DNA from: Jaapia argillacea MUCL 33604
Taxonomy: Eukaryota; Basidiomycota; Agaricomycetes; Jaapiales; Jaapiaceae
DNA: 59,089 bases
Reading direction: 5' to 3'
Assembly: GCA_000697665.1 (NCBI GenBank)
Contig: KL197749.1
Coordinates: forward strand, 1-59,089
The notes below the pieces were generated by a model. It had not been told where the DNA came from and did not search any database. It saw only the letters and a program-made list of their open reading frames with translations. Numbering within the stretch: position 1 is the first letter of the stretch; the number at the start of each line of letters is the position of its first letter. Shown here piece after piece: positions 15,551 to 56,780 of the stretch. Made by a program: the position numbers and the translations under genes.

Positions 15551-15983
15551 GGCGGTTCAAGGATCGGTGGTCAGAAAGGCAGTCTCGACAGTGTAAATGT
15601 GTTTTCAGAGTTTTGGACTTGGTGAAGAAAAGTTTTGGGATGTTTGGTGCCACAATTGTGTTTGGGCGTGATTGCATGTCCAATGAACGCTCCATCCCAA
15701 CTCCATCCTCTGCAGAATTGGTTCACATTTTTGTGCAGTGTGACGAATATATATCAGGTTTGAGTCCTCCGCGCTGCATAAACGGCTGTGCTATATCGCT
15801 TCACGCTTGGTCGCGATCGATAAAGGCTGCAGGGGAATATCCCTCTGCTTCGAACCCATTTGTTGATTATCGCTTGCCTAACACTACTATGCAAGCGGCA
15901 GTTGCAAACCACGAGGCAGTTCCTGGTCAGCCTTGCAGTCTTCAGTTGACAGAAACTAAGTTTACCAAGCGCTCATAATAGAC
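15551..15983. other. Intergenic between UTP18 and F-box gene 1
   Basis: Shared upstream region of the divergent UTP18 and F-box genes. An AT-rich TATATAT run lies near 15748-15755, about 230 bases upstream of the F-box start. It is too far upstream to call as a TATA box without transcript data. No gene seen. Confidence 0.35.
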
Positions 15984-17483
15984 ATGGACTTGCTTGGAAT
16001 CCTTCGCACAGGGTACCCACCCCAAGCCGTGGACGTCCCTCGCCTCCTTGAGCACATCTCTTTCGCAGACGCTGATATCTCTGCTCTCAACTCCCAAATC
16101 CTGGAACGGAGAGCACATATCGCTCAAATCATGGAGGAAATCACGGTCCTGTCAGCCCAAGGAGAACTGCGCGCCCGGCAAGTTTTGCCCTACAGGTCGG
16201 TCTTCGCGCCCGTCCGGCGCCTACCAATGGAGATATTGACTGAGATCTTCGTCCATTGTCTCCCCGACCCTTCGGCCTTTGGTTATCCAGAAGCCCGAAG
16301 GACCCTTATGCATGTCTGCTCGTCATGGAGGGAGCTGGTATGTTCTACACCACGATTATGGTCGACGATTCTGGTGAACGGTCCCAACGACGCGGAAGCG
16401 AGCTTGGAGCATATGAATGCATGTTTAGCCAGGTCGGGTACTCATCCCCTGAACATCTTCGTAACCCACCTCGAGGGGAGCCCGGCGTCGTCAGAAATCT
16501 TGTCTCGACTAGCTCGTCATGCGCACCACTGGCGGTCCATGGAGTTGGTGGTGGGCGACGTTGAACTACTTCAGCTCTTCTCGCTTGTAGACGGAGCGGG
16601 ACTGCAGATGCTTCAACGGTTCGATCTCGATATCATACAGGCTTCCGGTACCGCAGCCACTCGGCGAATCCTCAATGGCCTAAATTTCCTCTTTCACGCT
16701 CCCCGCCTTCACGATGTCCAGATCAGCTCAAATATGCAGGACATGGCCATACCGGATCTTCCATGGTCGCAATTGACTCGATTGGACCTCCGTCTATCCC
16801 CACTCTCCACCTCACATATCCTCGACATCCTCTCCAAATCTCCCAACCTCACAGACTTCTCGACCATTATCACCGCGTACCTGAACCCATTGGAAACGGT
16901 GACAATCCAACCCCTCGTGCATGCCAATCTCAAATACCTAAACCTCGTCATCTCAACCAACTTTCGTCACCTTTTCAGCCGCCTCACTCTACCCAGCTTA
17001 GAGCGTCTGAGAGTGCATTGCCGCACACACATAAGCCGTGGGGAGTCAGATTGGGGAAACCTTTCTTCTTTCCTCCGACGCTCCGCACCGCCACTTGACC
17101 AACTCAACTTACTCTTGTATTGGATCCCCGAATCCGACCTTCTCGACTGCCTCACCTACGTGCCGAGCCTTACCCGGTTCCATTGCACCGCAGACGTCCA
17201 AATTGATCACATCCTCAAGGCCATGACAATTTCCTCCAAGAGCAAAACCGACTCACACCCGGTCGTTCTTCCTCGCCTCGACACGCTTATCCTTCGCGGT
17301 CCCACATTCGCTCCCCAATCTCTCACCGATATGGTCCTGTCACGATATGGCGACACATTCTCATCGCCTTCGTCGCTGCGCCAAGTTAGATTGGACGTTG
17401 CAGACGAGATCGAGGAACTCGAAATCTCTACTCGTTTGGCCCCACTCCGCGAACTTGGACTTGGGCTCTTCCTATGGCCTTGA
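15984..17483 (+). CDS. F-box/LRR-like protein (F-box gene 1)
   Basis: Single-exon 499-residue F-box protein, a probable substrate adaptor of SCF (SKP1-cullin-F-box) ubiquitin ligases. Order: an N-terminal amphipathic coiled-coil helix (about residues 20-65; ISALNSQILERRAHIAQIMEE), the F-box (about 72-96; APVRRLPMEILTEIFVHCLPD), the TSSWRELVCSTPRLWS-like link helix common to this mushroom family, then degenerate leucine-rich repeats to the C-terminus (LPWSQLTRLDLRLSPLS; SLTDMVLSRYGD). It starts at the ATG that opens the uninterrupted frame. It is convergent with F-box gene 2, 239 bases apart. Substrate unknown. No breaks are seen. Confidence 0.88.
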   Translation: MDLLGILRTGYPPQAVDVPRLLEHISFADADISALNSQILERRAHIAQIMEEITVLSAQGELRARQVLPYRSVFAPVRRLPMEILTEIFVHCLPDPSAFGYPEARRTLMHVCSSWRELVCSTPRLWSTILVNGPNDAEASLEHMNACLARSGTHPLNIFVTHLEGSPASSEILSRLARHAHHWRSMELVVGDVELLQLFSLVDGAGLQMLQRFDLDIIQASGTAATRRILNGLNFLFHAPRLHDVQISSNMQDMAIPDLPWSQLTRLDLRLSPLSTSHILDILSKSPNLTDFSTIITAYLNPLETVTIQPLVHANLKYLNLVISTNFRHLFSRLTLPSLERLRVHCRTHISRGESDWGNLSSFLRRSAPPLDQLNLLLYWIPESDLLDCLTYVPSLTRFHCTADVQIDHILKAMTISSKSKTDSHPVVLPRLDTLILRGPTFAPQSLTDMVLSRYGDTFSSPSSLRQVRLDVADEIEELEISTRLAPLRELGLGLFLWP

Positions 17484-17722: not shown

Positions 17723-19470
17723 CTATCTCAAATTGACGACCAACCCATCCTCGACGAAATCCGCCAAGAGGGCATTCAGCTCCCTTCCAAATGACGCATC
17801 GCACTCCACAGTCAAAGACCTCACTTGGGAGACTTCAACTTGTGAAGAGGATCCTAGGTCATCGCCGTGGCCTCTGCCAGAATCGATCGTAGCGGCTCGA
17901 TGGTGTTTCTGCCATCGTGAATGAACCATATGCGACAAAGCACGGGCGGTGAACGCTGGTTGTCCTCGGACGACGAATTTCGTCAAGCTTGGCAGCGGGC
18001 AAGTCGCGTCGGTCGGAGATTCTCTAGTCAAATGTTTGAGAGACCCGTCGGTGATGACAGGTATCGCTCTATTGACGACTTCCAAGGAAAGCAGGGAAGG
18101 GATGCATCGGAGACAAGCAAGAAAGTCCTCTTCTAACATGTGTGGTGTGGATAGAGAGAGCTTCCTTATCTGACACGAAGATCTCGCCACGAATTCATCA
18201 AACCTCCACCCGACGAAGTGACCCCTATCCAAAGTATCTGGGATCTGAATCTCCAAAACTCTCAGTTTTGGAGTTTGTAAGGATTCGATGAGATGAGTGA
18301 GAGGAACGGACGACACCACACGGAGAGTCTCTAGCTTGTTGAACGGAGAGGGAATTACCCCCAGAGGATCTGTTCGGGGCCATTGGCTGAGAGTGAGGGT
18401 GCAATGGATGACATTTGGACAGGACAGGAGGATATGTATGCAATCGTCAGCGGTGAGGCGGACACCGGGGGCATCGAGGATGGCAATGCGCGTAAGACGA
18501 GACCATGGTAGAGATCGTAAACGTGGCTCGCTAATTGGAGGAGAGAATTCGAGACCCCGCAGGCGAGGTGAAGATCGAAGGAAAGATATGCGGGAGATGA
18601 AATGCCGTGATTCTGTCCACTCGTCAACTGGTTGAATGTGGAAGGATTCCAGGAGCGGAGTTGAGCCCTTCGGGAGGTGAAAGAGCTGTTTGATGGAGGT
18701 AGGAGGAAGGTGTATGGAGATGTGTTGCCATTGGCGTGAATATGATATAAGGCTATCGAGGACTCCCATAACGGAGGGAGAGCTCTCTGAGAGCTCTGAA
18801 ACCTCAGCAACGAGACGGACTGACAAGGGTTGAGATGACCCTGCACGTGATAGCCATGTCTGTAGCAACAACTTGTATGATGAACGATCCGAGACAGCCC
18901 GGTTTAGCGGATAAGGCCTTCTTATTGTGAGAGAAAGTGAAGTCCATAAAACGGGCGTGGACAGGGCAATAACTCTCCATGAATGACAAATCTGACAAAA
19001 CACCAAAGGCGCTCCATTCGAATACGGTACGACGAACCTCGAAGACTTTACTCGTGTAGCCCTTCCTATCGACTGCTTTGGGAGACAAAAAACGAAGATA
19101 CGGCCTAAGATCTCTGGAGGGAGTCGTCGGATGGGTGCCTCTAAGGAATGGTAACCGTGTATTTGCCTATCCAGACCATCTCGATATGTCTGAAGCGGGA
19201 TAGGGAGGAAGTGCCTTGGAAACCCCGAGCGATGGGCTTGTTCATCGAGGTCTTTGATATCCTTTTCGAACTCCTTCACAGCAACCCGGAGGTTCGTGGT
19301 TTCGCATGAGGAGGGATAGCGCCCGGAACGCAGGATGTTGAAGACGTCGGGTGACTGAGACCATTCCTCTGGGGAGAAATTCAACATATCACCAAGGCTC
19401 GTGGGTGGAAAGGCTACGTACTTGACCGAGATGCAAACGAAGGGACAATATCTGCCAAATTCCAGTTCAT
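17723..19470 (-). CDS. F-box/LRR-like protein (F-box gene 2)
   Basis: Probable SCF ubiquitin-ligase adaptor. My model has a 49-base first exon (19470-19422; MNWNLADIVPSFASRS), a 53-base GTACGT...CCCCAG intron (19421-19369) and a long second exon. The total is 1,695 bases, or 564 residues. Without that intron the first in-frame ATG is at 19387. The protein has RYPSSCETTNLRVAVKEFEK and a coiled helix, the F-box (APIRRLPPEILGRIFVFCLPK), a CHSWRVIALSTPVLWTSLSL block, LRR-like repeats (LPWSRLTRIAILDAPGVRLT) and a C-terminal LSHMVHSRW block shared with the other F-box genes here. The frame is intact. Confidence 0.87.
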
Positions 19471-19477
19471 TTTCCAC

Positions 19478-20484
19478 CTCCTCAGTGGGCGCCTTCTACG
19501 AATTAAGGAAAGTTGGTCGGTTCCCTGGAATTTGAATTTGAATCTGAAGGATTGAGAATGGTAGACGAGCAGATTTTATGATTGAGGGTTAGAGTTGGGG
19601 TAGAGTTCCCCCGCCGGTCATGGTCATAACTGCGCTCCCGTGTCCAATGGATAAGCGCGGGAGGAAAGGGCGAGTCACGACTCTGGTTGTGAGATTTCAT
19701 GCCACGAATTGAACGTGGACCGGTATATTTTCTGTCTCCGAGTCGCAGTACTGTCGCATCTATTCTTCGGCCTGACCACATACAGTATATACGTCAGTAA
19801 TATGGATGGCATTGCTCTTCTGACGGAATGACCGTTGGGTCGTCAAGAACAGGTATGGTATGGGAAGTAGCCGACCGTGGATAAGGGAAAAAGTACAAGT
19901 CTCGTACTGGTACAGGAAGGGGGTGGTTTGGGCTAGAAATCACGACAGGAGGATATCGAGGCATTGTGGTAAATTGAGTGGGTGTAAGTACGCCTCCGTC
20001 AATCCCTGGAGCTCTCATCCAGCACACTGCATCTCAAAGCGATCGTTCACGGAGGGGCACAAGCAGCGCGACCTGATTGCAGACGGTACCAGTCGGACCA
20101 GGTGCTTTGAGGGAGGGAAGGGTTGTCTGAATCGGCACTTGAAGTTCCTCATGTGAGCCACCCTCTTTGTCTCTCCGAAGCTATGAGACTGGCCGCGAGT
20201 TGGAGGACTTTCTCTGGAGAAATTAAATCACTGTCCTCTTTGTCGACGGTCGTCAATCTGACGTTCAGAACTGAACGAGGTAAAGGATTGGACTGACCAT
20301 CACTCGGCTCCTGAGTCGGCCGTCGTTTGACGATTCGTCCATCGGATTCATTAACTTCGTGCACTTCTAATATCAGTTTACGGACGGAACATAATGGACT
20401 TAAAACACTAACCAGTTGGCTTTATGGTGGAGAAATCTTGGACGAGTATTCTCCCGTCACCTTCGTCACCTTCGCAGATATCTG
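19478..20484. other. Unresolved, possibly small minus-strand exons
   Basis: Minus-strand frames at 20364-20149 (starts MHEVNESDGRIVKRRPTQEP) and 20027-19794 (Pro-rich, ends in a stop at 19794) look compositionally like the tail of a membrane protein. They could be the 3' exons of the gene at 20485-21733, because a GTTAGT...ATATTAG intron candidate lies between 20415 and 20365. I could not make one continuous model and do not claim a gene. Confidence 0.25.
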
Positions 20485-28221: not shown

Positions 28222-31200
28222 TCAAGCACCAATGTGGACGTACTGAATCCAGCAGTCCAATGGAACACCTTTCAGGCGGATGGCCTGCATAGCTAGACTT
28301 AGAGCCTTTGCTGCGTCCCGAAAGTCTGCAGCACCATCTGAACGGAACATGTACTTGTAAAATTCCGTAGCGAGTTCTGGCCCAATGTGATCAGGCGCTT
28401 GCCATAGTGTACCAACGACACTGCGAAAGCCAGCGAATTGTAGAGCCGATGTGATATGTATCACTTCGTCTGGAGCACCATTTGTATCGGCAGCGGCTGT
28501 GTGGCAGGCAGACAGAAACGCAAATTCAGCGTTTGGCAGTCTTGCGGTCGTTATCTCGTGCACAGTGAGGTGGCGGCCGTAAAGCTGTAAGAAAGATTTG
28601 AAGGGCTCTTTATCACGATGACCGTGGCAGGTGAAATGAGTCCACTGGTGCCGCTGGAGATGGCGGAGAACGGATTCGGGGGTCGCTTCCGCACCAACAA
28701 GCGTAGTCACAAAGGAGCCAAGGGCCTCTACACAACGAAGTTCTGCTTCTGCTTCTCGAAGGTCGTCTGAAGGTTGGCAAACCGCAAGGAGTCGGGGCGA
28801 GCAAGGTGGTTGTATGAGACCAGACCTGGCTCTGATCAACGCGGAAAGTGTGGGGGTATATGAGCAGACATAGAGATCAGGTAGGTTTATCGCTCCACGA
28901 ACGTACTCGCCTGCAGCATGCAAGGGGAGGCCACACAACACCGAAGTTGGACACAACCAGATATGGGCCATCCGGGGTACATTCAGCAAGGCGAGTTCCT
29001 GGTGAATGGGAAGCATGACATGATACCACAGCGCACGAAGGACTGGGGTAATCTGCTTCGACCGATCTGGGTCGTCGGATCCTATTGCGCTAAAGAGCTG
29101 AGCGGAACACCCATGTAGGGAGTCTAAGCTCGCACTGGGAAGAGGCACGATGACTGGAGGGTTCGAGCCTTGGAGGATAAGAGCGTCCGAACGGTATTGA
29201 CTAATGTTGATCACGACAATCACAGATTTCACCGCAACCTGTTGGAGAGTAGAATATGGGACCGCCTTCAGGAAATCCTCGAAGCCTCGAAGCTTTCTGA
29301 TCTTATCAACCACATCATCCCATTCCTCCGATAGAAGACGGTGATCTCGCATCCTGGTGTCTCGGGCGATGTTATGATCTTCATGAATCTCTCCTTGCTC
29401 CAGGGACGAGGCCTTGGGGTCAGATTCGATCAGTGTGGTGATGTGTTCAAGTTTTGCAGATACGTCCTCAAATTGCATGCAGAGGGAAGAGTCGGCATCA
29501 CGGAGGGCATAGAGAGATTCGCGATAACCTTGCAACTTGGACCAGAGAATCGTACGGCCATGTTCCAACTTCTCGAGCGCCATCTCAGCCTTCCTTTCCT
29601 CGATTGCAGAGGCGGCTGCATCACAGGCAAGTGACTTTCCCTCCGCACCGAGAAATTCTTGCTGTGTGACAACGTCAGGACAAGTGGCGAGGCATTTGTG
29701 CAAGAGGGCAAGTGCACGGGAGTAGGCATGTGAAGTAGAATGGTGGCGATGGCGAATCGCAGAGGAGATCCATTGGCGAGTTGCCTTGAGTTGCTCAAGT
29801 GAAGATGCAGCCTTATGGTAGGCAGCGTCCGCGAGAAGGTCAAATGCTTCTTCGGGGTAGTTTGCTGGAGGGGGACCGGAAGGAGCTTTCCCCGCTAGAA
29901 GTGTTACGGCAAGCTCCGTCAAGATCGACAAAGTGTTTCGGTGGTTATCGGGTAAGCAAGTCCGGGCTTCCCTAAGCCTATGAATCCCCATCTTCAAGTC
30001 ATTCTCGTCCCCGGCGTCTTGATATCGGCGACGAAGAGCAACTCCCATATTAGCGAGGGCAATAGCGCGGTCAGGCTGATGGTCATTGAAGAAACTGAGA
30101 GCGTCGTGATGATAGCCAATGGCAGTGTCCAAATCCTCCATCTTCCCCAAAGACTCGTAACGTGATCGAAAGGAACAGCCAAGGCTGTCAAAGGTGCATC
30201 CACGCCTTGAATCCTGAGCTGGCATCAGATCGAGAGATTCCAGCTGAAGTTCCAGAACTTCATCTAACGTAGATTTCCCAAGTTGTCCCTCGTATTTTTC
30301 AAGAGCATAAGCAAGAGCATTGAGGGATATAGAACGGCGAGAATGACCAGCAGGGCGCAGACTAAGCGCCTCTCTGGCGTGTCCGACCATCTCTTTCAGA
30401 TCTCCAGTCTGGCCCGAGTGCTGGAACCTTGAACCAAGGGCTCCAGAAAGGTTCCCAAGGACCCGGGCGCGCTTGTCGTCTCCTTCAGGGAGCAGACGAA
30501 GGCACACGCGGTAATATTTAATCGAGTCCTCCAAATGTTCCAACTGGCCTGAATGGCGATATCGAGTCCAAAGGCGGCTGGCAAGTCCATTACAGATGGC
30601 CTCGCGATCCTTTCGACTGACACTGGGAGTGATATCGAGGGCTTCTTGAGAACATCGAATTGCTTCCTCTAAATCACGGAGCTGACCAATGCCGGAGTTG
30701 AATCGGCGCGCGAGGTAGGAGGAGAGGTGATCGAGAGTCGCAGGACGGAGGGTATGGCCTGGGGAACAGAGAGTGAGAGCCTCGGTACAAATCTTGATGC
30801 CCTCCTCCAAATCATTCATCGAACCAGAATGGCGACATCTCCTCCTGAACAAAGACGACAGGTTCAAGAGAGCCTGTAAGCGGTCAAGTGTGTCGATGGA
30901 AGGGAAGTTGAGGTCCTCGCGAAGGATTTCAATTGCCTCTTCGAGGTCACCAGGCCGACTTGAAGAAGTTCCCCATCGCAACTGGAGTGACCTGACGAGA
31001 TTACGGAGAGTCGAGTGATGATGAACATGATTAGAAGGACGGAGAGCGAGAGCCGCACGGCCATGAGCGATGGATTCATCCAAGTAATCATGCCTTCGAG
31101 AAAGGGTAAAATGTTTGGTGAGATGACGATTGAGGTCGAAGAGCACTTCATCTCGACCTGGCTCTCCGTCTGGTCGGAGATCTAGTGCCTGTCGATCACA

Positions 31201-32604
31201 TTCAATCGCATGCTCCAAATCCCTCATCTCGCCTCTGTCCGTGAAACGGTCATAAAGTCGCCGCGCCTGATAGTTGTACTCGAATGCGAGCCCTCGACGG
31301 TTCACAGTACTGTCCAACTGGTCACGGAGGGGACATGCCACACACTGGCTTTTGTACTTTATGGCGCTCTCTAGATCATTCATTGAACCAGAGTGATCAT
31401 AGCGGGTTTCAAAAGCTTTGGCAAGATGTGTGAGAGAGGTCTTGCGCTCTGGATCGCCAACAGGACGAAGATTAAGTGCTTCGCGATGTAGTCCAATCGC
31501 TTCCTCCAAATCACCACTCTGATCAGGAGAGGCCGTGTATCGGGAATCAAGTGCGATGGCGAGGGTGGTGAGAGTAGAGACACGTTCGTGGTGACCAGCA
31601 GGTCTGAGGACGAGAGCCTCCTGGGCACAAGATATCGATTCTTCCAGATCCTCCTTCCGACCACAAAGCTGGTAGCTTTCTCTGAGGTGATGGCTGAGGT
31701 CGTACAGAACCTCATCCCGCCTTGGGTCACCCTCTGGTCGCAGATCTAGTGCCTTGCGGTCGCATTTGATCGCATGCTCCAACAGCTTCTGCTGGTTCCC
31801 GGACAAAAGAAAGCGCTCATAAAGTGTGCGACTTTGATACCGATACGCGACAGATTTATCCCGGCGAGGTATAGTATCGCCACCAGGTTGGTTGGGTAGG
31901 AGATCAAGATTCACATGTGTGAAGTTGACGAGTTCCTCTAGGTTACCTGAAATGTCGAGTCGCGAGTGAAGGGCGGACAGCAGGTTGTGTCGATCGGGTG
32001 ACTGGCCCAAGGGGCTGATGGGCGGAAGAGCAAGAATCTCGAGACGATATTCGATTATCTCCTCGAACTCGTCCCCACTACCCGAATGCTGCTGCTGCAT
32101 TGTCAGGGCGTCGGCCAAGCCTTTGAGACAGTCGGCTCGCTCAGGGTGTCCAACAGGACAAAGACTGAGATCATCGCGATGGTATTTGATGGCATCCACG
32201 AGGTCATCGATCTGGCGAGACTTTCTGAATCTGGTACAATGTCTGTTGGCCAGGTTCCTCAGACACGAGGGGCGAAGCGGGTGACCGGCGGGGCATGCCG
32301 CAAGGGCGTGCCGAGCATGGGTGATTGATTCTTGAATGTCCTCCATGTCGTCAGAGAAACGAAAACGGTGCTCGAGATGACGGCTCGAGCGGAGGAGCGC
32401 GTCAACACGAGCGGGATCTTCGTCAGGCAGAAGAGCAAGCAATTTACGGTCTGACTCGATCAGTTGCCCGAATTCCTCGGCTGATTTAAGCAGACTAGAT
32501 GTGATGCCCTCCGGGGATATGTCTCTATTTATCTCCGTCGGCTGCTCTGCGGTTGAGGGAGGAATACCGGTCGAATCGAAGATGCAAGGAGATGGTGGAG
32601 GCAT
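28222..32604 (-). CDS. TPR-CHAT protein (caspase-like fold peptidase)
   Basis: A single uninterrupted 1,460-residue frame. The first ATG in good context (MPPPSPCIFDS) is 32604; an earlier in-frame ATG at 32646 adds 14 residues. From about residue 70 to 970 there are many (about 14) degenerate TPR units with the signature RY...SG...DLEEAI...REAL.LRP.GH..R...L..LA. A helical linker with EKLEHGRTILWSKLQGYRE follows. The C-terminal ~300 residues are a CHAT domain with both catalytic positions kept: His in HFTCHGH (codon 28624-28626, residue 1327) and Cys in FLSACHTAA (codon 28504-28506, residue 1367). It ends WIQYVHIGA. CHAT domains belong to the caspase/separase clan. Bacterial TPR-CHAT proteins act as effector proteases in defence, but the function in mushrooms is unknown. 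A small membrane-protein gene lies directly upstream on the same strand. Confidence 0.92.
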   Translation of the reverse strand: MPPPSPCIFDSTGIPPSTAEQPTEINRDISPEGITSSLLKSAEEFGQLIESDRKLLALLPDEDPARVDALLRSSRHLEHRFRFSDDMEDIQESITHARHALAACPAGHPLRPSCLRNLANRHCTRFRKSRQIDDLVDAIKYHRDDLSLCPVGHPERADCLKGLADALTMQQQHSGSGDEFEEIIEYRLEILALPPISPLGQSPDRHNLLSALHSRLDISGNLEELVNFTHVNLDLLPNQPGGDTIPRRDKSVAYRYQSRTLYERFLLSGNQQKLLEHAIKCDRKALDLRPEGDPRRDEVLYDLSHHLRESYQLCGRKEDLEESISCAQEALVLRPAGHHERVSTLTTLAIALDSRYTASPDQSGDLEEAIGLHREALNLRPVGDPERKTSLTHLAKAFETRYDHSGSMNDLESAIKYKSQCVACPLRDQLDSTVNRRGLAFEYNYQARRLYDRFTDRGEMRDLEHAIECDRQALDLRPDGEPGRDEVLFDLNRHLTKHFTLSRRHDYLDESIAHGRAALALRPSNHVHHHSTLRNLVRSLQLRWGTSSSRPGDLEEAIEILREDLNFPSIDTLDRLQALLNLSSLFRRRCRHSGSMNDLEEGIKICTEALTLCSPGHTLRPATLDHLSSYLARRFNSGIGQLRDLEEAIRCSQEALDITPSVSRKDREAICNGLASRLWTRYRHSGQLEHLEDSIKYYRVCLRLLPEGDDKRARVLGNLSGALGSRFQHSGQTGDLKEMVGHAREALSLRPAGHSRRSISLNALAYALEKYEGQLGKSTLDEVLELQLESLDLMPAQDSRRGCTFDSLGCSFRSRYESLGKMEDLDTAIGYHHDALSFFNDHQPDRAIALANMGVALRRRYQDAGDENDLKMGIHRLREARTCLPDNHRNTLSILTELAVTLLAGKAPSGPPPANYPEEAFDLLADAAYHKAASSLEQLKATRQWISSAIRHRHHSTSHAYSRALALLHKCLATCPDVVTQQEFLGAEGKSLACDAAASAIEERKAEMALEKLEHGRTILWSKLQGYRESLYALRDADSSLCMQFEDVSAKLEHITTLIESDPKASSLEQGEIHEDHNIARDTRMRDHRLLSEEWDDVVDKIRKLRGFEDFLKAVPYSTLQQVAVKSVIVVINISQYRSDALILQGSNPPVIVPLPSASLDSLHGCSAQLFSAIGSDDPDRSKQITPVLRALWYHVMLPIHQELALLNVPRMAHIWLCPTSVLCGLPLHAAGEYVRGAINLPDLYVCSYTPTLSALIRARSGLIQPPCSPRLLAVCQPSDDLREAEAELRCVEALGSFVTTLVGAEATPESVLRHLQRHQWTHFTCHGHRDKEPFKSFLQLYGRHLTVHEITTARLPNAEFAFLSACHTAAADTNGAPDEVIHITSALQFAGFRSVVGTLWQAPDHIGPELATEFYKYMFRSDGAADFRDAAKALSLAMQAIRLKGVPLDCWIQYVHIGA

Positions 32605-32632
32605 TGTAAGATGTAGAGAAACAGAGGAGGGA

Positions 32633-33513
32633 TCACAGTCTAACATGACTCAAGTTAACACATCGAATTCCGTAGTTAAATAGGCGAGAGATGAACACAC
32701 CCTTCTCAAGGCCCGGCAGCAGTAAAGGCTGATGATCCCCTGCTTTGGACTCAACCTCCATTGCCTCTTCCATATTCCCCGCCTTCTTCGATGGCACAGG
32801 ATTCCCACACAGCCACAGCCACAGTAGCAGAGGAATCCTCGTTAATAAGCGCCAGAAGAAGGAAAATAGCATGTGGCCCAGGTTGTCGGGGTAGGGAACG
32901 ACCTTGGAGTCCTTCACAATAGTCGCTGATGTGATGACATACATAGATGTAAGAATCCGTGAGATGAGGCAGCCGAAGATGGAAACGCACCAGGCCCATG
33001 AGGTACCGAGTCTCCAATCGGTAGAGGCACGATTTTTTCACGGTCGATGGGCTCCTCAGAATCCATGCCCAATTCCCGAGGAAAATCCTCCACCGTGACT
33101 CCTCCTTCGTCGTAGATAGTGAAAGAATCCCCTCTGGTCTTTTCGCCGTCGTCGGTACCGTCCGACGGATCACGCCTTTTCTTAAAGGCAGTGTCCGTGT
33201 CCGCGATACTTGGTTGGAGTAGGTTGGGAGCATCGAAGGGCTGGGCTGGGATCCTTAAAATCAGTACTGCAACGAATTCACGTATATTCCAATTCAATGG
33301 GAGCTCACCCTGTTCAAGGGATGCTGATACGGAGAGCTGACGCAGCGCTTTCCCACCAGGTTCGATAATTCCAACCGAATCCTTCTTCTCATCCGGATCG
33401 TACAAACGATCACAGAGCATACTTCGTTCGCTGTCGTATTCAGAAATACCTCCTCTGGAATCCCCACTGTGCCGGTGTTGGTTCGGTGGGCGAGGGGCAT
33501 CATTGGGCGCCAT
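32633..33513 (-). CDS. Small membrane-protein gene or 5' exons of the TPR-CHAT gene
   Basis: The first long exon starts at ATG 33513 (MAPNDAPRPPNQHRHSGD). It is hydrophilic and acidic (RRDPSDGTDDGEKTRGDSF; EDFPRELGMDSEEPIDREK). A probable intron begins GTACCT near 33022 and ends TGTGAAG near 32925. After it the frame continues in phase with DSKVVPYPDNLGHML and one very hydrophobic segment (FFWRLLTRIPLLLWLWLCGN), then EVESKAGDHQPLLLPGLEKG. Read through, it stops at 32633, overlapping the first in-frame ATG of the TPR-CHAT frame. A 61-base GTGTGT...ATGTTAG intron (about 32705-32645) would instead join it exactly in phase to the TPR-CHAT frame. I recognise no family. Confidence 0.5.
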
Positions 33514-33724: not shown

Positions 33725-33918
33725 TCAACTGTGGAGGGAACCAGGTTCTTCGGTACTTATCCCACCGGTAGTGCATCCAAGAGCCTGAGATCTGACAATC
33801 ATGTCGAGGGCTTGTTATCCTGAAGAACCAATATTCACAGTGGTCGCTGGTATCGACCGCCAGCGGGACTTCGCTTCCTTGGGGCTCCCTTGACATTTCA
33901 CTCACCCATTTGCCATTA
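33725..33918 (+). pseudogene. Carboxypeptidase promoter copy, left part of a split pseudogene
   Basis: Aligns with 23611-23786, the upstream region of the intact carboxypeptidase. Shared blocks in the same order are TCAAC.GT.G.GGGAACC, AGGTTCTTCG, GTTATCCT.AAGAACCAATAT, and TTTC.CTCACC...TTGCCAT just before the insertion. Identity is clear but reduced by many substitutions. The copy is cut at the TA dinucleotide (33917-33918) where the Tc1/mariner element begins, and continues at 37654. Confidence 0.85.
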
Positions 33919-34250
33919 CAGCCATTTGCGGAACATAGGGCGCGGCGTGAAATTTCCGGAAAGAGCCCAAATTTTGAGCTTTTCGTACACAGGCTATAAC
34001 TCAGTGAATACACGTCCCCTTCCCCTAAAAATTAGAGCAATCGAACGGCGTTGCGAATGCGCAGACGCACGTCGTTTCAGATTTTCGAAAACGTCGGTTT
34101 TTGACTCCGGCAGAAAAGCACCCCCTCCCGAGAGTAAACATCGATTTTCGCGGGCGCATCTCAACGTAGCGGTCCAAAAATTAGATAGCGAGCACCGCGC
34201 TGTCAATGCGCAGACGCTCCGTATTTTTGTTTGGCAAAAAGTCGATTTTT
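33919..34250 (+). repeat. Left terminal inverted repeat
   Basis: Inverted copy of 37322-37653. It starts CAGCCATTTGCGG and contains two internal AATGCGCAGACGC sub-repeats (near 34055 and 34205) and ends near GGCAAAA..TCGATTTT. The open frames that begin MRRRSVFLFGK in both repeats are products of this non-coding sequence. Confidence 0.93.
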
Positions 34251-34358
34251 TCGATGGGTCTAATACACAGCTCTGCCGGATCCAGCAATCTGTGGCTTCC
34301 TTCTCACCACATCATTGGTTTCGACATATCTCGGCCTCGAAGTCTACACTTACATATC

Positions 34359-35537
34359 ATGCCTCGAAAAAAAAACCCTCTTGCCGCCCGTAAGGTATAT
34401 CATCGGGATCTGAAGCAGCGTGTCATCTACCAAGTGTACACTCTCGGACTGTCGACTACCGAGGTTGCCATTTCACTCGACATGCCACTGCGAGTAGTCC
34501 AACGTGTCCTCAAGATGTGGAGGGAGATTGGGGAGGTCTGCAAGGACAGAACCCGACTGGGGAGATCCCCATTGATGACCACTGATGCAGTTCGAGTATG
34601 TGCATCTTGATTGTATTCTTAGTCAAGTAAACTAGTACTGATATTTCTTTGCCCATAGCTGATGCTTGGACTGTTGGAGCACACTCCAGACATCTTCCTT
34701 GATGAGATACAGGAGCAACTTGAAGAACAACATGGAGTTCAGGTTTCCCTCTCCACAATCTGGAGAACTCTCAAGAGGCTTGGAATATCTTCAAAGCAAG
34801 TGAGTAACCGACATAGCTCAGTCTCATCCCAGTCCCAGTAACCTGGTAACCAGCTCTCAAAGGCAGCTCGGGAACGTTGCGAGGATGCCCGCCGTGATTT
34901 TGTACTTGAAATAGGACACGAGCCTCCCGAGAGGATTGTTTGTGCCGACGAGAGTGCAGTCAATATCCTGACATCGTACCGAGAGAATGGCTGGTCCTAC
35001 CATGGGGTTCGTGCACGAAAACGGGCATGCTTTGTTCGAGGAACACGGTAAGTTTGTCTCAATACTCTTTGATATGACTTCCCCTGAGCTCCCCTAGATA
35101 CTCCTTATTGCCAGCAATCACAATTGATGGGATCATTTACAGTCACGTCAAAGTTGGTGGATATAATGGTGATCAGTTCCTTGACTGGTTAGAGGGTTTG
35201 CTTGAGGTAATGAATCCATACCCAGCTCCCCGAAGCGTGCTGGTCATGGATAACTGTAGAATTCATCATGTTGAGGGAGTGGAGGAGATGTGTGAAGAGA
35301 AGTACACCCCCTTCCCTGGTAGCCATTCTGATATTTACTCAACTAATTCACAGGGGTGTCAGACTTGTCTACCTACCTCCATATTCCCCAGACCTCAACC
35401 CAATTGAAGAATGTTTCTCCTTCATCAAGCACTACATCCGTCGACACGGTGAAGAGTTCGTAATATTGTGGAGTTTGGAAATCCAGATGAGCCATATGTT
35501 TTCCTCTATGGTGTACTGGATCAGGTCACACCATTAG
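34359..35537 (+). CDS. Tc1/mariner transposase (DD34E), C-terminus frameshifted
   Basis: Cut-and-paste transposase acting on the flanking inverted repeats. Five exons (34359-34595, 34659-34799, 34854-35047, 35098-35301, 35354-35537) give 319 residues. The N-terminus has a basic helix-turn-helix DNA-binding part (LGLSTTEVAISLDMPLRVVQ, then a second HTH with VSLSTIWRTLKRLG). The DDE catalytic core has the first Asp in IVCADESAVN, the second in LVMDNCRIHH, and the Glu in YSPDLNPIEE, with 34 residues between the last two after splicing. Near 35459 a one-base deletion moves the frame, so the last ~40 residues are replaced and translation stops at 35535-35537. The original ending is still readable in the next frame up to 35575. 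The catalytic core itself is intact. Confidence 0.9.
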
Positions 35538-35591
35538 CTTCGAAGGGGTGGTTTCATCATTCTGGATACATGTAATTCATAGTACAAGTTG

Positions 35592-37201
35592 TTACTGGCG
35601 CTTTCCTTTTGCCCGAGCAATCCTTTTCATCTCATCCTTGACCTCCTTCAAGAGAAACCGTGCATTTCCTGCAGACATCTTGAACTCCTCGCCAATCAAC
35701 CGATCCTCTGTGAAGTCTGCGATCTCGTTGATATCAAAAAAGTCAGCATTTTCAAATGTGTCCATATATTGGGCAAGACTGCACGTTTCGGGTATTGTGC
35801 TATCAAAGAGGTAAGAAAGTCGGCAATGGATGGATAAAGGCCTCCTTCTGGTGCAGGTGGATCACTTGATGGGATTGGGAGTGGATCACGGGTGGTGGAT
35901 GGAAGTGGAGCTACCATGGAGGAATGATTCACCAGGCTCATCCTGTTATTCATCATCATCGCTAGCATGCTGGGAAATGCCATCCCCCACATGTCAGACA
36001 TGGGAGCTGGAGATACCGGGGTTTGAGGAACTGGTTGAGATGTAGGAGTGATAGATGTGGGGGTAGATCCAACTCCGTGAAAGGCACTAAAGAGCGGACT
36101 CTTGGGTGGTGAATGTAAAGTAACACCATGGGTGTTCAAGGCCTACAGACCGTGAATGCAAGCAGATAAGATGAAATTTGTCTGAACGTACCAGAGACAT
36201 TGCCCATCCACGACGCTGGTTCATCGAGAGGGCTACATGCTGCCCACTCTTATCAATCTTGCAGTACAAGGAGGGCCCACATTTCTGGCAGGTCGATAGG
36301 GTATTCTCAAGACTCTCCAACATCTTTTGTTCCCGCTCCAGCAAGTCATCGTCATCTCTGCCATCATCATCTCCAAGGTCATCGCTGTAATCGTTGTCGA
36401 GATCGATTAGTGCAGGTGCCTTCTTCCAGCCTCTCTTCCCTCCCACTGAGCTCGCTGTCTGGGGGGCCTTGCGCTTGCTAGTACAGCTGCGAAGTGAAAG
36501 CAAATACTAGAGAAGATCATATATCTCCATTTCTTGGTGGAGATAAGAGAACTCACAATCTCGGGGACTATGATCATCACTGGGACACTTAGAGCTGTAC
36601 CACCTTTCTTTTTGCCCGCTTCAGCCTGCTCAACCGACTCTAGGCAACCCTCCCAGTCTCCTTCCACACGTAGGTTGAAAGTGGGGGCCTTGGCCGAGGC
36701 ATTTGACAGCTTGTATGATAACTCAGGCTTTCGAGCAACATCCTTGCATCCAATGGTCTCGTGAATAAGGTCGAGAGTGGTCTTGAAATCAGCATCACAG
36801 AGCTTGATTGTAACACGCTGCGTGCCATCACTCAATGCCTGTGGGATCAGAAGCACAATCTCTTCATAGGCCAAACCCATTTGAGCTGCTCAAACAGGTA
36901 ATGAGGGACCGAGCAACTTACTTTTCTCGGGTTGAGGCTTCTCGATGATTGGCTCAATGACATCAGGTTCCTCCGCCTTGGACCCATCCTGCAGCACAAG
37001 GACAACCTTCTTTCTCTTCTTTGGGAGAGGTCTGGGAGGATTGGGTGGTGTGGCATCAATGTTTCCTGGATCGGAACACTTTTCGCCGTCACTAGGCTGA
37101 GAATGTGTGAGCGGATCGCCGGGAGGAGCATGTGAGTCACCTTCTGCAACCGAATGAGATCGAAGCTTCCGTTTTGAAGAGGTGGAGCGACCGTTGCCCA
37201 T
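35592..37201 (-). pseudogene. Accessory gene carried by the transposon (SAM-like C-terminus), frameshifted
   Basis: A multi-exon gene within the element, not related to transposases. It starts at ATG 37201 (MGNGRSTSSKRKLRS). Exon 1 is basic, with PRPLPKKRKKVVLVL, a likely nuclear signal. A 36-base intron follows, then a globular exon with MGLAYEEIVLLIPQALSDG and the block KLCDADFKTTLDLIHETIGC. After another intron comes an acidic run (DLDNDYSDDLGDDDGRDDDD), then STCQKCGPSLYCKIDKSGQH and LNTHGVTLHSPPKSP, then a Pro/Ser linker. It ends in a helical segment (LYPSIADFLTSLIAQYPKRA, then DFFDINEIADF and SAGNARFLLKEVKDEM) that looks like a SAM-type fold. A one-base shift near 35777 separates these last two parts. 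The stop is at 35592-35594. This architecture recurs in hypothetical proteins of mushroom genomes, from memory. Function unknown. Confidence 0.65.
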
Positions 37202-37321
37202 AGATAATGAGATAAATAAGCAGGTTTTGCGCAAGTGGTGTCCGAGATCGTAGTTATGGGGAGAGCAAGGCTTGCCGCGGCAACTTCGCTCCCAACCGTG
37301 AATCCTTCCAATCTGGTTTCG

Positions 37322-37653
37322 GAAAATCGATCTTTTGCCAAACAAAAATACGGAGCGTCTGCGCATTGACAGCGCGGTGCTCGCTATCTAATTTTTGTAC
37401 CGCTACGTTGAGATGCGCCCGCGAAAATCGATGTTTACTCTCGGGAGGGGGTGCTTTTCTGCCGGAGTCAAAACCCGACTTTTTCGAAAATCTGAAACGA
37501 CGTGCGTCTGCGCATTCGCAACGCCGTTCGATTGCTCTAATTTTTAGGGGAAGGGGATGTGTATTCGCTGAGTTATAGCCTGCGTACGAAAAGCTCGAAA
37601 TTTGGGCTCTTTCCGGAAATTTCACGCCGCGCCCTATGTTCCGCAAATGGCTG
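37322..37653 (-). repeat. Right terminal inverted repeat
   Basis: Reverse complement of 33919-34250 with a few substitutions, for example in the GTCGG/GTCGGG and TACACAGG/TACGCAGG segments. It ends CTATGTTCCGCAAATGGCTG immediately before TA. Confidence 0.93.
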
Positions 37654-38205
37654 TAATATTACCCTGCTGTTTGGCGTCTGCCCGGGCTGTCCTTTTGATG
37701 GCTGATTTTGCAACTGGATATTCACAAAGGGGACAATTGCTATTCACTTTCAATCGACCGTCTGACGAGTATTTATTGTCGTGTTATTGATATATGGATG
37801 TTTGTAGGGTGGATCAGGTATGTATTGTCACTGTATTTTAATATCACGAGTCCCTGGCGTGCAAGGAGGAGTTTTGGAGTCCTTCTCCGCCTGGACCGCG
37901 GCTTGATACTCACGTTGGTGTGGTCTGCCGTGGTTCGCTGGTACTGCGCCTGAGCGTGAAACCCCCCAAAAAAAAAATTCAGGCATCGAGCTGATCACGG
38001 TTAGCTCTCCAACGTCGCTGATCTTCATCGCAACCAGTCTGTACCTCGGATCAACACCGCTTTGCAAAGAAAAGGGCCCAGCGATGTCCTCCACTTTGAC
38101 GCGGCTTCAGATACTGATGTGGCAAAACCGCAGGAGGGTCAATGACACTAGATAGGAGAGGGCGTAGGAAACAAGAAACTGTCATGATTGCATCATCTAC
38201 TTACA
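37654..38205 (+). pseudogene. Carboxypeptidase pseudogene, right part
   Basis: Continues the copy interrupted by the transposon. 37656-37775 aligns with 23780-23905, the start of the intact carboxypeptidase. It includes the signal-segment region and the GYSQxGxxLFTFNxPSD block in one frame, but the start codon is lost. After about 37775 homology to the coding part stops. 38052-38205 then aligns with the 3' flank at 25961-26100 (GAACAC.GCTTTG; GGCAAAACCGCA; CTAGATAGGAGAGGG). About 2 kb of coding sequence is therefore missing. 37776-38051 matches nothing I recognise. Confidence 0.85.
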
Positions 38206-46500: not shown

Positions 46501-48792
46501 GCATTCCTCGACAACCCCTTTGTCCAACGATTGTATCGTATCCGCTGTCGTGGCGAGGGAACCAGAGTACCACTTCTTTCCGCAAACGATCCTCCCGCAG
46601 TGCCTAGATCCTAGGCTCTTTGCGCCATTCCATAACTCCCAGCAGTTTATGGGTGTTGTTGGGCTGCAACATTTGAATTGGTCCCCCCGCGCTGAAAAGC
46701 CTCGCGGTTCTTATGTACTTTATGTGTGGCATGGCCATGCTTGCCCCGCGAGAATGACCTTGTGTCTCTACTCAATCAACCCAGGTTCGTTCTGTGTGTA
46801 ATTTCCCCCTTGATTCGTCCCTGAAAAATAAAATCCTCTGCAGAAGACCGCAAGCTACGGTAGTCTGGCCACGATCTCAACCTGTCATTCCCGCATCACG
46901 GTCGAACTCATCGTTTCTTTTCAAAGCAACTCCTACTTATCCGAAGGCGCCCGACAGACTCCTCCACCCGGTCCGGCCACTCTTCCTCATCCGGAGAATC
47001 TTACACCATGGTCGACGTGAAGGCTCTCTTCCATACTCCACCGTGCCAAATGCCATCTCCGTCGGAAGGGTCACTCATATGATATATCGGACTTCCCCGA
47101 CCACCCTACTTCCCGCCAGCCCCATCTTACTTCATTCATTGGGGTCTCACCATCTACCTCGATGTCAAGCCTCGCATCCGTCGGGACCCTGTATTCCTGT
47201 CCATGGTCTCCCAGATCGATCTGGCCATTCATGATCGTAACGTATTCAGAACCCTTCACCTCAACGGACAGGAACTTCGAATTTTATTCGGAACCCCTAC
47301 GTCTCTGTGTCAGCATTGCCGACCATTTCAGCGAACAATCAATGCCCTTCATAGAAGGGTTAACTCCCCCCTTAGATGTCTTGAAGTGGCGGATTTTCTT
47401 GCGCCAGACGCTGGGTCGTCTTTCCATCCGGCGCTCGGATCGTCACGGTGTCGCAAGGAATGGATCCAAACACCATACACCCCCTTAACTCCAGCGGGCG
47501 AGTTCTCATGCTACGAGATTCCCATAGCAACTGCCTTCACGGCATTCGCCTGCATAGTCGGTTTAGCTTCTATCGGATTCAACTGCGCTGGAGGTAGTTG
47601 ACTTGTGTTTCGCTCGATGTCGGGCCTCTGGACGGTCCACGAGCCCGTATCTGACGTTTCTTCGTACCAATCTTGTGAATTGCGAAGTGGTTATCCTTAG
47701 ATCGACATGAGTCTTTCCAGGCTTGCTCCGAGACGCGACACCGCCAAAACCTCCCCTGCCTTGTGTCCACAGCGATAACGTCGTGATCGGCCCTTCGTTC
47801 CTCGACCATCTGTCCAATCATTCCATCACTTTCCGGCGGCAGACGGCGAGATCGGGCGCTAAGCTTCTCGGATCAAACGATCCTCCCACACCATGAAGAT
47901 CCCGAATCCCTTTATTCCACTCCACAACCACCGGCTGCAGATGGTCATTTTTAGACCCAACACCAATGCTAGAAGAACCCTGACTCGCCTTGTCCATGCA
48001 TCGTGATTGACTTGTCCCCACCGACTGCTTAATGGAGTTTTTAGTCGCTCGTTCCTCGAGCGATGAGGTTGAATCTTGCCTCGTTAGCTTCAGCACGTGC
48101 TCCCAAGCCTGTCGTTTTCGTTGGGTAAATTCTAATACTGCCACTGGAGATGACCTTCAAGATAGTTGTCGGGCCCTTTGGTATGTACGGCAGGGCTATG
48201 ACCATGTTACAATATTGATGGCCAATGTCAACCCTTCGTTCGTCCTTTTAATATCTGCGTCATTTCTCCCATCATTTCCATCACTCCGCAGGGATACCAT
48301 GAATGCTATGGAAGAAAATCGTATAACCCCCAAGCTGTCCCAGCCTGTATTAGTCGCGCGCGACTGCGACCATGACCATCGTCATTTCTGATTCCCCATG
48401 CCAGATCCGAATAACCTTCGGGCTCACTCACGCCTAGCGCCCGAATATCCCGGCCCATAGTTGACCACCATCAAACCTAATCGACGAAGAAGCACTAAAC
48501 CGCCCCTCCATTTCCAAACCTCTGAGTGTGACACCGACTTGCGGTTTTGGAATCGGGGCTTGACATAAGTGTTGTAGACTGTGGACCTTTGAGGTGCTTG
48601 ACCATTTAATGATTATGTGTCACAACGTCATTTCCATGGTTGCAAATCCCAGTTTTATTCCAACCAACTCTCCTCCCCACGCCGGTTGAACTGGGATCAC
48701 TTTGGAGCCTAGATTCGTCAGGTCGGTATGTTCCATTGGCTCTTGAAGTATTTGTGTCCACTCACTTTGGATATTGCCCTTCCCAGAGGACA
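46501..48792. other. Degenerate stretch upstream of F-box gene 3
   Basis: Short frames only. 46501-47600 may contain further F-box decay, for example VFRTLHLNGQEL-like words near 47230, but I could not anchor it to a domain. A minus-strand frame of 108 codons at 47818-48144 has no known motif and no neighbouring exons I could join. The upstream in-frame extension of F-box gene 3 from 48640 has no ATG before 48793. Confidence 0.35.
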
Positions 48793-50127
48793 ATGCCTTC
48801 CTCGAAACAGCCTTCATCGCTCAACGATCACGCATCAAAGGATCCTCTTCTCGAATCGCCCATTCGCAAGGTTCCAGCTGAAGTACTGTCGAAGATCTTC
48901 GTTGATAGTCTCCCAGACGACAAGTTCATGTCTCCCGACGCGAACGCGACGCCTCTCCTCGTCACGCAGATTAATAGTCGTTGGAGAGAGGTTGCCCTGC
49001 GAACTCCCTCCCTATGGTGCTCGTTCGACTGGAAAGTGTCGCATACCAGGGACATATATATGGCTCAGTCGTTCACTGTGCAAAGGTGGCTCCAGCGCTC
49101 GGGTGGTCGTCCACTCTCGTTGCGCTTGATCGCCTCTGAGCATCACCCATCGACGGATTATGGACCATGTTCTCCGGAGCATTGTCTCCAAATGGTGATG
49201 CCGTACGCGCAGCGCTGGAAGATTCTCGAACTATATCTCCCCGCACATTGGTGCAGCTGTCTTCAGTACCTCGACTCAATGGGCACTCCACTGCTTGAAA
49301 GCATCAAGATTCAAGCACTTCCAGAAGGCGCGAATCCCGCTTTCCTCGCCAAGGCTCCACGCCTTTCCCATGTTGACCTCCGCTTCCCCTTTACGACCCA
49401 CTCGACCATACTTCCCTGGGCACAGCTGACCAGTCTTCACTTTGGTGTCGGGTTTCCGGGCCTCGTCACCACAGAATGTCTTCAGAAACTCCAGGAATGT
49501 ACCAGTCTCTTGCACTGCACCCTCATCGGCATTGCACAGGTGGATCCTTCCATGGATAGCCCCGTAACTCTACCGAAACTTCAGTCGCTATTCCTCCACG
49601 CCGCCGTCGACGTCGCTCTACTTCTTGACAGCCTTCTTCTGCCAAAACTAGAGCAGCTTCGCCTCTCCTACCCTAGTGGCGTGGATCCATCCCCAAGCCG
49701 GCCTATCATCTCTTTGATTGAACGGTCCTCATGTGTCATAAAGCACCTTCGACTCTCAACCCAATTTTCCAGCGACGAGGGGCTCTTGGACGTATTGCGG
49801 AACACTCCGCTACTGGAGACCTTGAAAGTTGCTGATGAGGACCTCGTGCTATCTGCACACTTTATGGAGCGTTTAACGATTCATCCTGTCATTGGTGACG
49901 ACCCCTCGGACCATGCGTCTCATATGCTTCCAAACCTTAGGTACCTGTACCTCAAAGGCAACGTCACCTCCTCCGCTGTCGAACTTGCTCAGATGGTTCG
50001 TTCCCGTTGGAATACCACGAGGCTCGAGGAGGTCCATATCACATCGAGTTCAATCTCTGAGGCCCTGGAATCCTCTTTGAAATTGGATGACTGTATCGAT
50101 GCAGGATTGATCTTCGTCGTCGAGTAA
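48793..50127 (+). CDS. F-box/LRR-like protein (F-box gene 3)
   Basis: Single-exon 444-residue F-box protein, a probable SCF ligase adaptor. I start at ATG 48793 (MPSSKQPSSLN). The frame is open 153 bases further upstream but without an ATG, so an upstream exon is possible; relatives in this window carry a coiled helix there that is lacking here. The F-box is at about residues 18-40 (ESPIRKVPAEVLSKIFVDSLP). It is followed by TPLLVTQINSRWREVALRTP, RWLQRSGGRPLSLRL, LRR-like units (LPWAQLTSLHFG; LPKLQSLFLHAAVDV) and the C-terminal LAQMVRSRWNTTRLEEVHI block. The frame is intact. Ends 765 bases from the stop of the truncated dynein gene (convergent). Confidence 0.87.
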   Translation: MPSSKQPSSLNDHASKDPLLESPIRKVPAEVLSKIFVDSLPDDKFMSPDANATPLLVTQINSRWREVALRTPSLWCSFDWKVSHTRDIYMAQSFTVQRWLQRSGGRPLSLRLIASEHHPSTDYGPCSPEHCLQMVMPYAQRWKILELYLPAHWCSCLQYLDSMGTPLLESIKIQALPEGANPAFLAKAPRLSHVDLRFPFTTHSTILPWAQLTSLHFGVGFPGLVTTECLQKLQECTSLLHCTLIGIAQVDPSMDSPVTLPKLQSLFLHAAVDVALLLDSLLLPKLEQLRLSYPSGVDPSPSRPIISLIERSSCVIKHLRLSTQFSSDEGLLDVLRNTPLLETLKVADEDLVLSAHFMERLTIHPVIGDDPSDHASHMLPNLRYLYLKGNVTSSAVELAQMVRSRWNTTRLEEVHITSSSISEALESSLKLDDCIDAGLIFVVE

Positions 50128-56469: not shown

Positions 56470-56780
56470 TTACTTATACCTAGCGGCAATGCCAGTCACT
56501 TTATCACAGCTATAATTCTACTCAGTCCCGCGTAAAATCTGCGACGTAGCCTCGTCGCTCCCCAGAATTCAGTATCTCATCACTCCCGCGAGAGGTAGAA
56601 CGTCAGTCGACTCTAGATCTCCTTCATGAGTAGATTCAGTACTTTGACAGTCCTTAACTTCCACATTCCAGTATGACTCCTTCGTCTAATAATTCTCCCG
56701 TTCACGATCTCCCATCCATGTATTCCCTTTTACGAAACAATTAGATCCCAGAGGATCAAGTCGCCCGGATACGAGATGAG
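56470..56780. other. Upstream region of F-box gene 4
   Basis: May contain the first coding exon of F-box gene 4. ATG at 56673 opens MTPSSNNSP, and a 45-base GTTCAC...CAATTAG interval joins it in phase to IPEDQVARIRDEM just before 56781. The donor is non-canonical, so I leave it out of the gene call. Confidence 0.35.

Follow-up and report, generated by a model that had tools for sequence, protein, structure and literature searches.

Tc1/mariner elements are textbook one-gene transposons, and they serve as tools since the transposase suffices. The locus analyzed here raises the question of why such an element should hold a second gene inside its inverted repeats. It lies in the window, the whole stretch of 59,089 bases that was studied, which forms the start of contig C41 in a 43.7-Mb assembly. 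The sequence-only reading of this DNA took the second gene for an unrelated, host-like gene that one element may have captured. The reading favored here, with moderate confidence, is that the window element belongs to an old two-gene Tc1/mariner (IS630-type) lineage whose second protein is probably a transposition helper.

The window element and its two genes

The Tc1/mariner (DDE_3, DD34E) element is 3,735 bp long and occupies window positions 33919-37653. The left terminal inverted repeat (TIR; 33919-34249, plus strand) starts with CAGCCATTTGCGGAACATAG and is preceded by a TA at 33917-33918, and the right TIR (37323-37653, minus strand) is followed by a TA at 37654-37655. These TA dinucleotides were read from the sequence and set the element boundaries at 33919 and 37653. 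The inverted arms are 97% complementary over 335 nt with the flanking TTA included (33915-34249 and 37323-37657) and are about 331 nt long without it. The terminal 20-mer CAGCCATTTGCGGAACATAG occurs once per element end, against a chance expectation of 0. A 42-nt direct repeat is present inside the right TIR (37355-37396 and 37504-37545, 74% identity, spacing 149) and is mirrored in the left TIR. Internal direct repeats within TIRs, the IR/DR layout, are known from some Tc1 elements, and the 42-nt repeats are candidate protein-binding sites.

The transposase gene is on the plus strand at 34359-35575 and has five exons (34359-34595, 34659-34799, 34854-35047, 35098-35301 and 35354-35575) with hand-placed splice sites. 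Its product matches DDE_3 (E = 3e-30), HTH_32 (1.1e-8), HTH_33 (1.1e-8) and HTH_23 (7.1e-7) in Pfam, and a hand count on the protein gives 34 residues from the second D (VMDN) to the E (NPIE), corresponding to DD34E. The second gene lies tail to tail with the transposase gene, inside both repeats, on the minus strand at 35592-37201. Its four exons (37201-36922, 36885-36557, 36506-36192 and 36142-35592) also have hand-placed splice sites, including the start of exon 3. Both genes, the repeats and the TA sites are observed directly, and they bear out the sequence-only reading in its description of a Tc1/mariner element with inverted repeats and a convergent, multi-exon second gene. Overlapping open frames reveal one apparent frame break close to the 3' end of the transposase gene (near 35459) and another toward the 3' end of the second gene (near 35783), so the window copy may be inactive or mis-assembled.

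The DDE_3 transposase with its N-terminal helix-turn-helix and DD34E, the TIRs and the TA target place the element in Tc1/mariner, and it departs from the usual form of the superfamily by its second gene. The usual form is 1.3-2.4 kb long with a single ORF (PMC4188875), whereas the window element has two genes in 3,735 bp.

The second protein has a lysine-rich N terminus and a C-terminal helical block; between them are an alpha/beta-looking block, a candidate zinc knuckle and a Ser/Pro-rich linker. The lysine-rich runs, read from the translations, are KKRKK in the window protein and KKRKR in that of a relative, L050. The alpha/beta-looking block A (36557-36883, minus strand) was aligned with three other elements and is ubiquitin/PB1-like by eye only; its single-sequence structure model has a mean pLDDT of 39, which is too low for use. 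Block B (36192-36341, minus strand) contains the candidate zinc knuckle as the motif C-x2-C-x5-C-x7-H..L....WA..[IL], and a GT splice donor follows directly after it. Block D (35592-35839, minus strand) is the C-terminal helical part, recognized by alignment and a single-sequence model, and has the frame break inside it. The C-terminal 63 residues were modeled from the single sequence as three helices with a mean pLDDT of 67.5, and the best Foldseek match had E = 5.1. The sequence-only reading suspected a SAM-like bundle at this end; Pfam gave no SAM match, the PDB profile search no significant one and the fold search no usable one, and this part of the claim stays a suspicion. The second protein has no match in Pfam, SAM or Myb/SANT included, and none of its matches to PDB profiles is significant (best E = 0.36, with a TP63 chain at E = 0.92). 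Pfam, PDB profile and fold searches thus detect no recognized domain in the second protein.

Elsewhere in the window, TPR-like units repeat, by eye, along a 1,475-residue open frame (28222-32649, minus strand), whose C-terminal SACHTA motif resembles CHAT-type proteases. Long open frames at 15960-17483, 17723-19495, 48613-50127 and 56745-58265 look, by eye, like F-box/leucine-rich proteins.

Copies and relatives of the element in the genome

A second copy of the window family starts at C30:438904, after TTA, and is cut off at 440543, where the contig ends. The repeat is present, the second gene is oriented as in the window, the copy's flank differs from the window's, and its transposase would fall beyond the contig end. 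The earlier claim that a non-transposase gene inside the repeats moves with the element is upheld by this copy. The DNA of the window second gene was matched only in the window element and the C30 copy.

A search with the transposase protein gave 52 matches, which we count as 22 loci. The loci read were the window, 17 others (L039-L055) and three deletion derivatives, with the weak locus C22:54938 left out. The second gene is present in 16 of the 18 transposase-clade loci (window and L039-L055) and is always convergent with the transposase gene and downstream of it. This recurring arrangement is a direct observation. It answers two points raised by the sequence-only reading, namely whether the second gene travels with the transposase and whether most family members lack it: both genes are carried by 16 of the 18. 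Fourteen of the 16 carriers are recognized by at least two conserved blocks, L048 by block D only and L051 by block B only. Some blocks were not delimited (for instance A in L040, L051 and L053, and C in L051, L053 and L054). In the remaining two loci, L052 and L055, neither the second gene nor the repeats were found.

Fifteen loci have both ends assigned, and 12 of these carry the second gene (window, L039-L047, L049 and L050). The ends of L041, L042 and L047 are judgment calls from short, imperfect arms. The two-gene elements span approximately 2.9-4.4 kb between assigned ends, and the ends mostly read TA-CAG[CT], with TA-TTGCC in L049 and TA-TAGCG at one end of L041. The other three loci are deletion derivatives of about 1 kb without a second gene and without the transposase past exon 1 (L017 at C6:351394, L018 at C8:980472 and L019 at C9:441262; ~0.9-1.0 kb). 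Their repeats are 66-67% identical to those of the window, and judged by sequence they are putative relatives with internal deletions that belong to a sister family, of which no full-length copy was seen. In L046, positions 84-1420 hold 107-nt inverted arms 1.1 kb apart, just inside one element end; the pair is possibly a nested insertion that makes L046 4.4 kb long. L054 is surrounded by 339-nt inverted arms, 95% alike, at 2250-2587 and 6807-7145 in transposase-forward numbering, and these are as long as the window's.

Single-gene Tc1 elements, of use as controls, are found outside the clade. L056 (1600-3172, C28) and L057 (1309-2902, C22) have TACACTGAGGG ends, repeat arms that span 1,573 and 1,594 bp, and one Tc1-type transposase each. 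In the DDE_3 loci outside the clade, L056, L057 and L058, no second-gene block scored better than E = 0.07. Weak DDE_3 matches at C48 and C25 fall outside the loci examined.

The sequence-only reading also raised the case of a gene at one conserved chromosomal locus around which the element had inserted. Protein searches of the genome with five kinds of second protein, at a threshold of E <= 1e-3 and with counts that are lower bounds, matched at least 16 loci, 15 of them with a transposase plus C30, which is cut by the contig end. No second gene standing away from a transposase was detected at this threshold, with C30 undecidable because its contig stops too early. The searches are not very sensitive, having overlooked L051 at C9 and given C18 only E = 0.09, and a distant host copy may have escaped them. 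The C18 match (C18:93077) was considered as a free-standing host copy and rejected, since a decayed convergent transposase adjoins it; it is a real second gene by block A (2e-11), block B (2.6e-7) and block D (1.2e-8). Other sub-threshold matches are at C4:1583313, C6:593113 and C14:562976 (E = 0.35-0.76). Two scans of viral contigs found no relatives.

Relationship, divergence and selection of the second genes

The features common to the second proteins across elements are the C-x2-[CH]...C...H...WA..I motif, the GT donor and a PP..F block. The window protein does contain the CQKCG...GQH motif pointed out by the sequence-only reading, whose C, C and H are found again in relatives. These three residues of block B are invariant in eight chosen aligned sequences; L042, L043 and L045 have lost the Cys/His motif. 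In 10 of 12 copies, a GT splice donor begins at the codon that follows the motif end W[AC]..[IL], the exceptions being L043 (ATAAGT) and L046 (ATGAGT).

The blocks were first picked by eye, and held-out profile tests were run for this reason. Profiles with each family left out were used to search 6,064 six-frame ORFs (331,877 residues) from the window and 25 loci, and the results comprise the best six or fewer matches below E = 1 per test. Held-out block A recovered L039 (4.9e-7), L050 (4.5e-7), L054 (1.5e-6), L045 (0.0045) and L041 (0.035), and missed L049 among the matches listed. It placed the window and C30 genes correctly but weakly (E = 0.23 and 0.14), and the window received no score from a block A profile built on three relatives. 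Held-out block B recovered L040 (1.2e-10), L053 (9.7e-5), L050 (2e-4) and L049 (0.0015), was weak for C30 (0.56), L054 (0.79), L051 (0.88) and L043 (0.99), and missed L039 and L045 among the matches listed. With the block B profile built without the window, C30 (0.56) ranks 17th and the window (0.83) 19th; above them are 15 matches in other second-gene carriers and one stray stretch of L046 (0.078).

Held-out block C recovered L043 (5e-5), L044, L041 and L040 (0.023); among the matches listed it missed L039, L045, L049, L050 and the window gene. The held-out profiles of block D recovered L045 (3.3e-17) as well as the L041-L044 group (2e-5 to 3e-9), scored L054 at 0.52, and also matched L046, L047 and L048, none of which was ever in training; they missed L039, L040, L049, L050 and the window gene among the matches listed. 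The listed window matches of blocks C (0.91) and D (0.58) below E = 1 all fall outside the second gene. Other stray matches were to L046 near its end (block B, 0.0015-0.88, stretch 137-229), to L052 (block C, 0.032-0.87) and to the wrong strand of L054 (block C, 0.43).

Shuffled sequences, 5,000 for each gene, were scored with held-out block B. No shuffle scored as high as L040, L049, L050 or L045, and the numbers as high were two for L043, three for the window, four for L039, six for L051 and seven for L054. A spliced B+C profile from seven other elements, with the window left out, scored the window at 17.2 bits (best domain 16.3); 0 of 5,000 shuffles reached this score, and the next match among those listed, a shuffle, had 5.9 bits. 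An hhalign comparison of the window protein with three relatives gave a probability of 4%, with 1 of 100 shuffles as high. No test of the window is stronger than the spliced B+C profile, and the family membership of the window gene rests on the joint evidence and on no one block.

These results bear on the proposal of the sequence-only reading that a host gene was captured by the window element alone and is carried as cargo. The second gene is without a recognized transposon domain, outside the window element its DNA was found only at C30, and block by block it matches the genes of other elements weakly, all of which the cargo proposal would accommodate. Three findings speak against that proposal: other lineages of the transposase clade contain convergent genes with a matching layout, the spliced B+C profile matches the window, and the searches turned up no copy without a nearby transposase except at the C30 contig end. 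Capture by this element alone is accordingly given very little credence; the recurrence of similarly arranged convergent genes across many diverged elements is the reason to reject a single capture of a host gene.

Identity between families is 27-58% for the transposase and 11-50% for the second protein over chosen blocks. The distance matrices of the two proteins are correlated across 12 elements (Mantel r = 0.80) and across two choices of eight families (r = 0.75, P = 5e-5, and r = 0.69), with all P <= 1e-4. The parallel divergence is observed directly; physical linkage by itself would also produce such agreement. The low identities leave room for separate origins, as would follow if different Tc1/mariner elements had repeatedly and independently captured one host gene family. 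Orientation, place, block order and splice donor are nevertheless all common, the distances are parallel, and the searches of this genome found no host gene of the family, which makes repeated capture very unlikely.

Over 350 codons, after two gap positions were dropped, 27 synonymous and 18 nonsynonymous changes separate the second genes of the window and C30. The resulting dN/dS of 0.19 (Fisher P = 8e-8) indicates that the second protein is under purifying selection. By eye, several of the replacements between the two copies exchange Arg for Cys, His, Gln or Trp, the pattern expected if CpG sites decayed once the copies had inserted. In the L041/L043-L047 group, diverged pairs gave the second gene dN/dS values of 0.08 and 0.11 (two pairs computable, two saturated) and the transposase values of 0.07-0.09 in four pairs, all diverged pairs being at very high dS. 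Six close pairs gave 0.30-0.78 for the second gene and 0.70-1.45 for the transposase, values expected of copies that decay after insertion.

A dN/dS well below 1 between the window and C30 would also fit a second protein that was co-opted by the fungus and conserved through host selection. The copies are dispersed with differing flanks, however, and L048, L053 and C18 look decayed; selection is likewise expected of any gene that an element needs while spreading. Co-option is scarcely probable on these grounds.

Comparison with known systems and the role of the second protein

Two-gene elements in which a DDE transposase is accompanied by a second protein for DNA binding or import are known as PIF/Harbinger, En/Spm (CACTA) and Mutator. 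The Myb-like protein of PIF/Harbinger and TnpA of En/Spm are second element proteins that help to assemble or localize the transposition complex. These elements differ from the window element in that they belong to other transposase superfamilies, and no Myb/SANT, Harbinger or TnpA-like domain is among the Pfam matches of the window element.

Parallels within the superfamily are found in ciliates. A survey (PMC7325037) states that DNA elements may hold additional ORFs, describes the Tec and TBE elements of ciliates, and notes a site-specific recombinase in Tec. The TBE elements are ciliate Tc1/mariner elements with three ORFs, one of them reversed, that encode a 42-kD transposase, a 22-kD product and a 57-kD zinc-finger/kinase protein, and all three are under purifying selection (dN/dS 0.1-0.3; PMC4724952). 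To this extent the window element resembles TBE and Tec as a Tc1/mariner element with an extra gene and, as in TBE, a gene in reverse orientation; it differs from TBE in having two genes, and Pfam detects neither a zinc-finger/kinase nor a recombinase domain in it. KDZ elements are fungal DNA transposons reported to have accessory genes frequently (PMC12477816). They are much larger than the window element and have another transposase. The same paper describes TcMar-2_Ec32 of the brown alga Ectocarpus as a 4.4-kb autonomous Tc1/mariner element, in which the addition is a domain fused to the transposase, whereas the window element has a separate second gene. No report of a two-gene Tc1/mariner element in fungi was found in the open-licence literature, which was covered mostly by title and start of abstract, with repeat databases outside its scope.

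The conservation of the second gene in an old family suggests that its product serves the element and is not a stolen host gene. The sequence-only reading had allowed that the gene might help its element, and an element helper is still the best guess; its description of an unrelated, host-like gene captured by one element does not hold, with the gene in 16 of 18 loci. In the mechanism we propose, the element would move by cut-and-paste; its two genes read inward from opposite ends, the DDE transposase gene from the left repeat and the second gene from the right. The second protein would be a nuclear helper of transposition, as the lysine-rich runs, the candidate zinc knuckle and the long repeats with their internal direct repeat lead us to infer. 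Its likeliest role would be to bind the repeats, the transposase or both, so that the transposition complex is assembled or localized; the exact biochemical step is a guess.

A stronger form of the helper reading is held only tentatively. The fungal lineage may be an obligate two-protein transposon: its second gene would date from the origin of the lineage and would encode a multidomain protein from a new family that binds DNA or the transposase and is needed for transposition. Such a system would, to our knowledge, be the first of the Tc1/mariner superfamily outside ciliates.

The main rival to the transposition helper is an ancient and conserved second gene that is dispensable for cut-and-paste and protects the element by anti-silencing or steers its insertion. 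VANC of VANDAL elements, which counters silencing, provides a precedent. Protection would agree with a gene that is conserved, selected and regularly carried, and that is constrained at least as much as the transposase among recent copies (0.30-0.78 against 0.70-1.45). The second protein has no domain or link to chromatin that was found, and we regard protection or steering as unlikely, while sequence alone would not separate protection from a helper of transposition.

With its conserved second gene, this fungal lineage can be used to test whether Tc1/mariner elements evolve dependence on a helper. According to the sequence-only reading, hypothetical proteins like the second protein recur in mushroom genomes. 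If these are transposon-borne, a class of hypothetical proteins would be explained as products of transposon genes, which annotation ought to mask.
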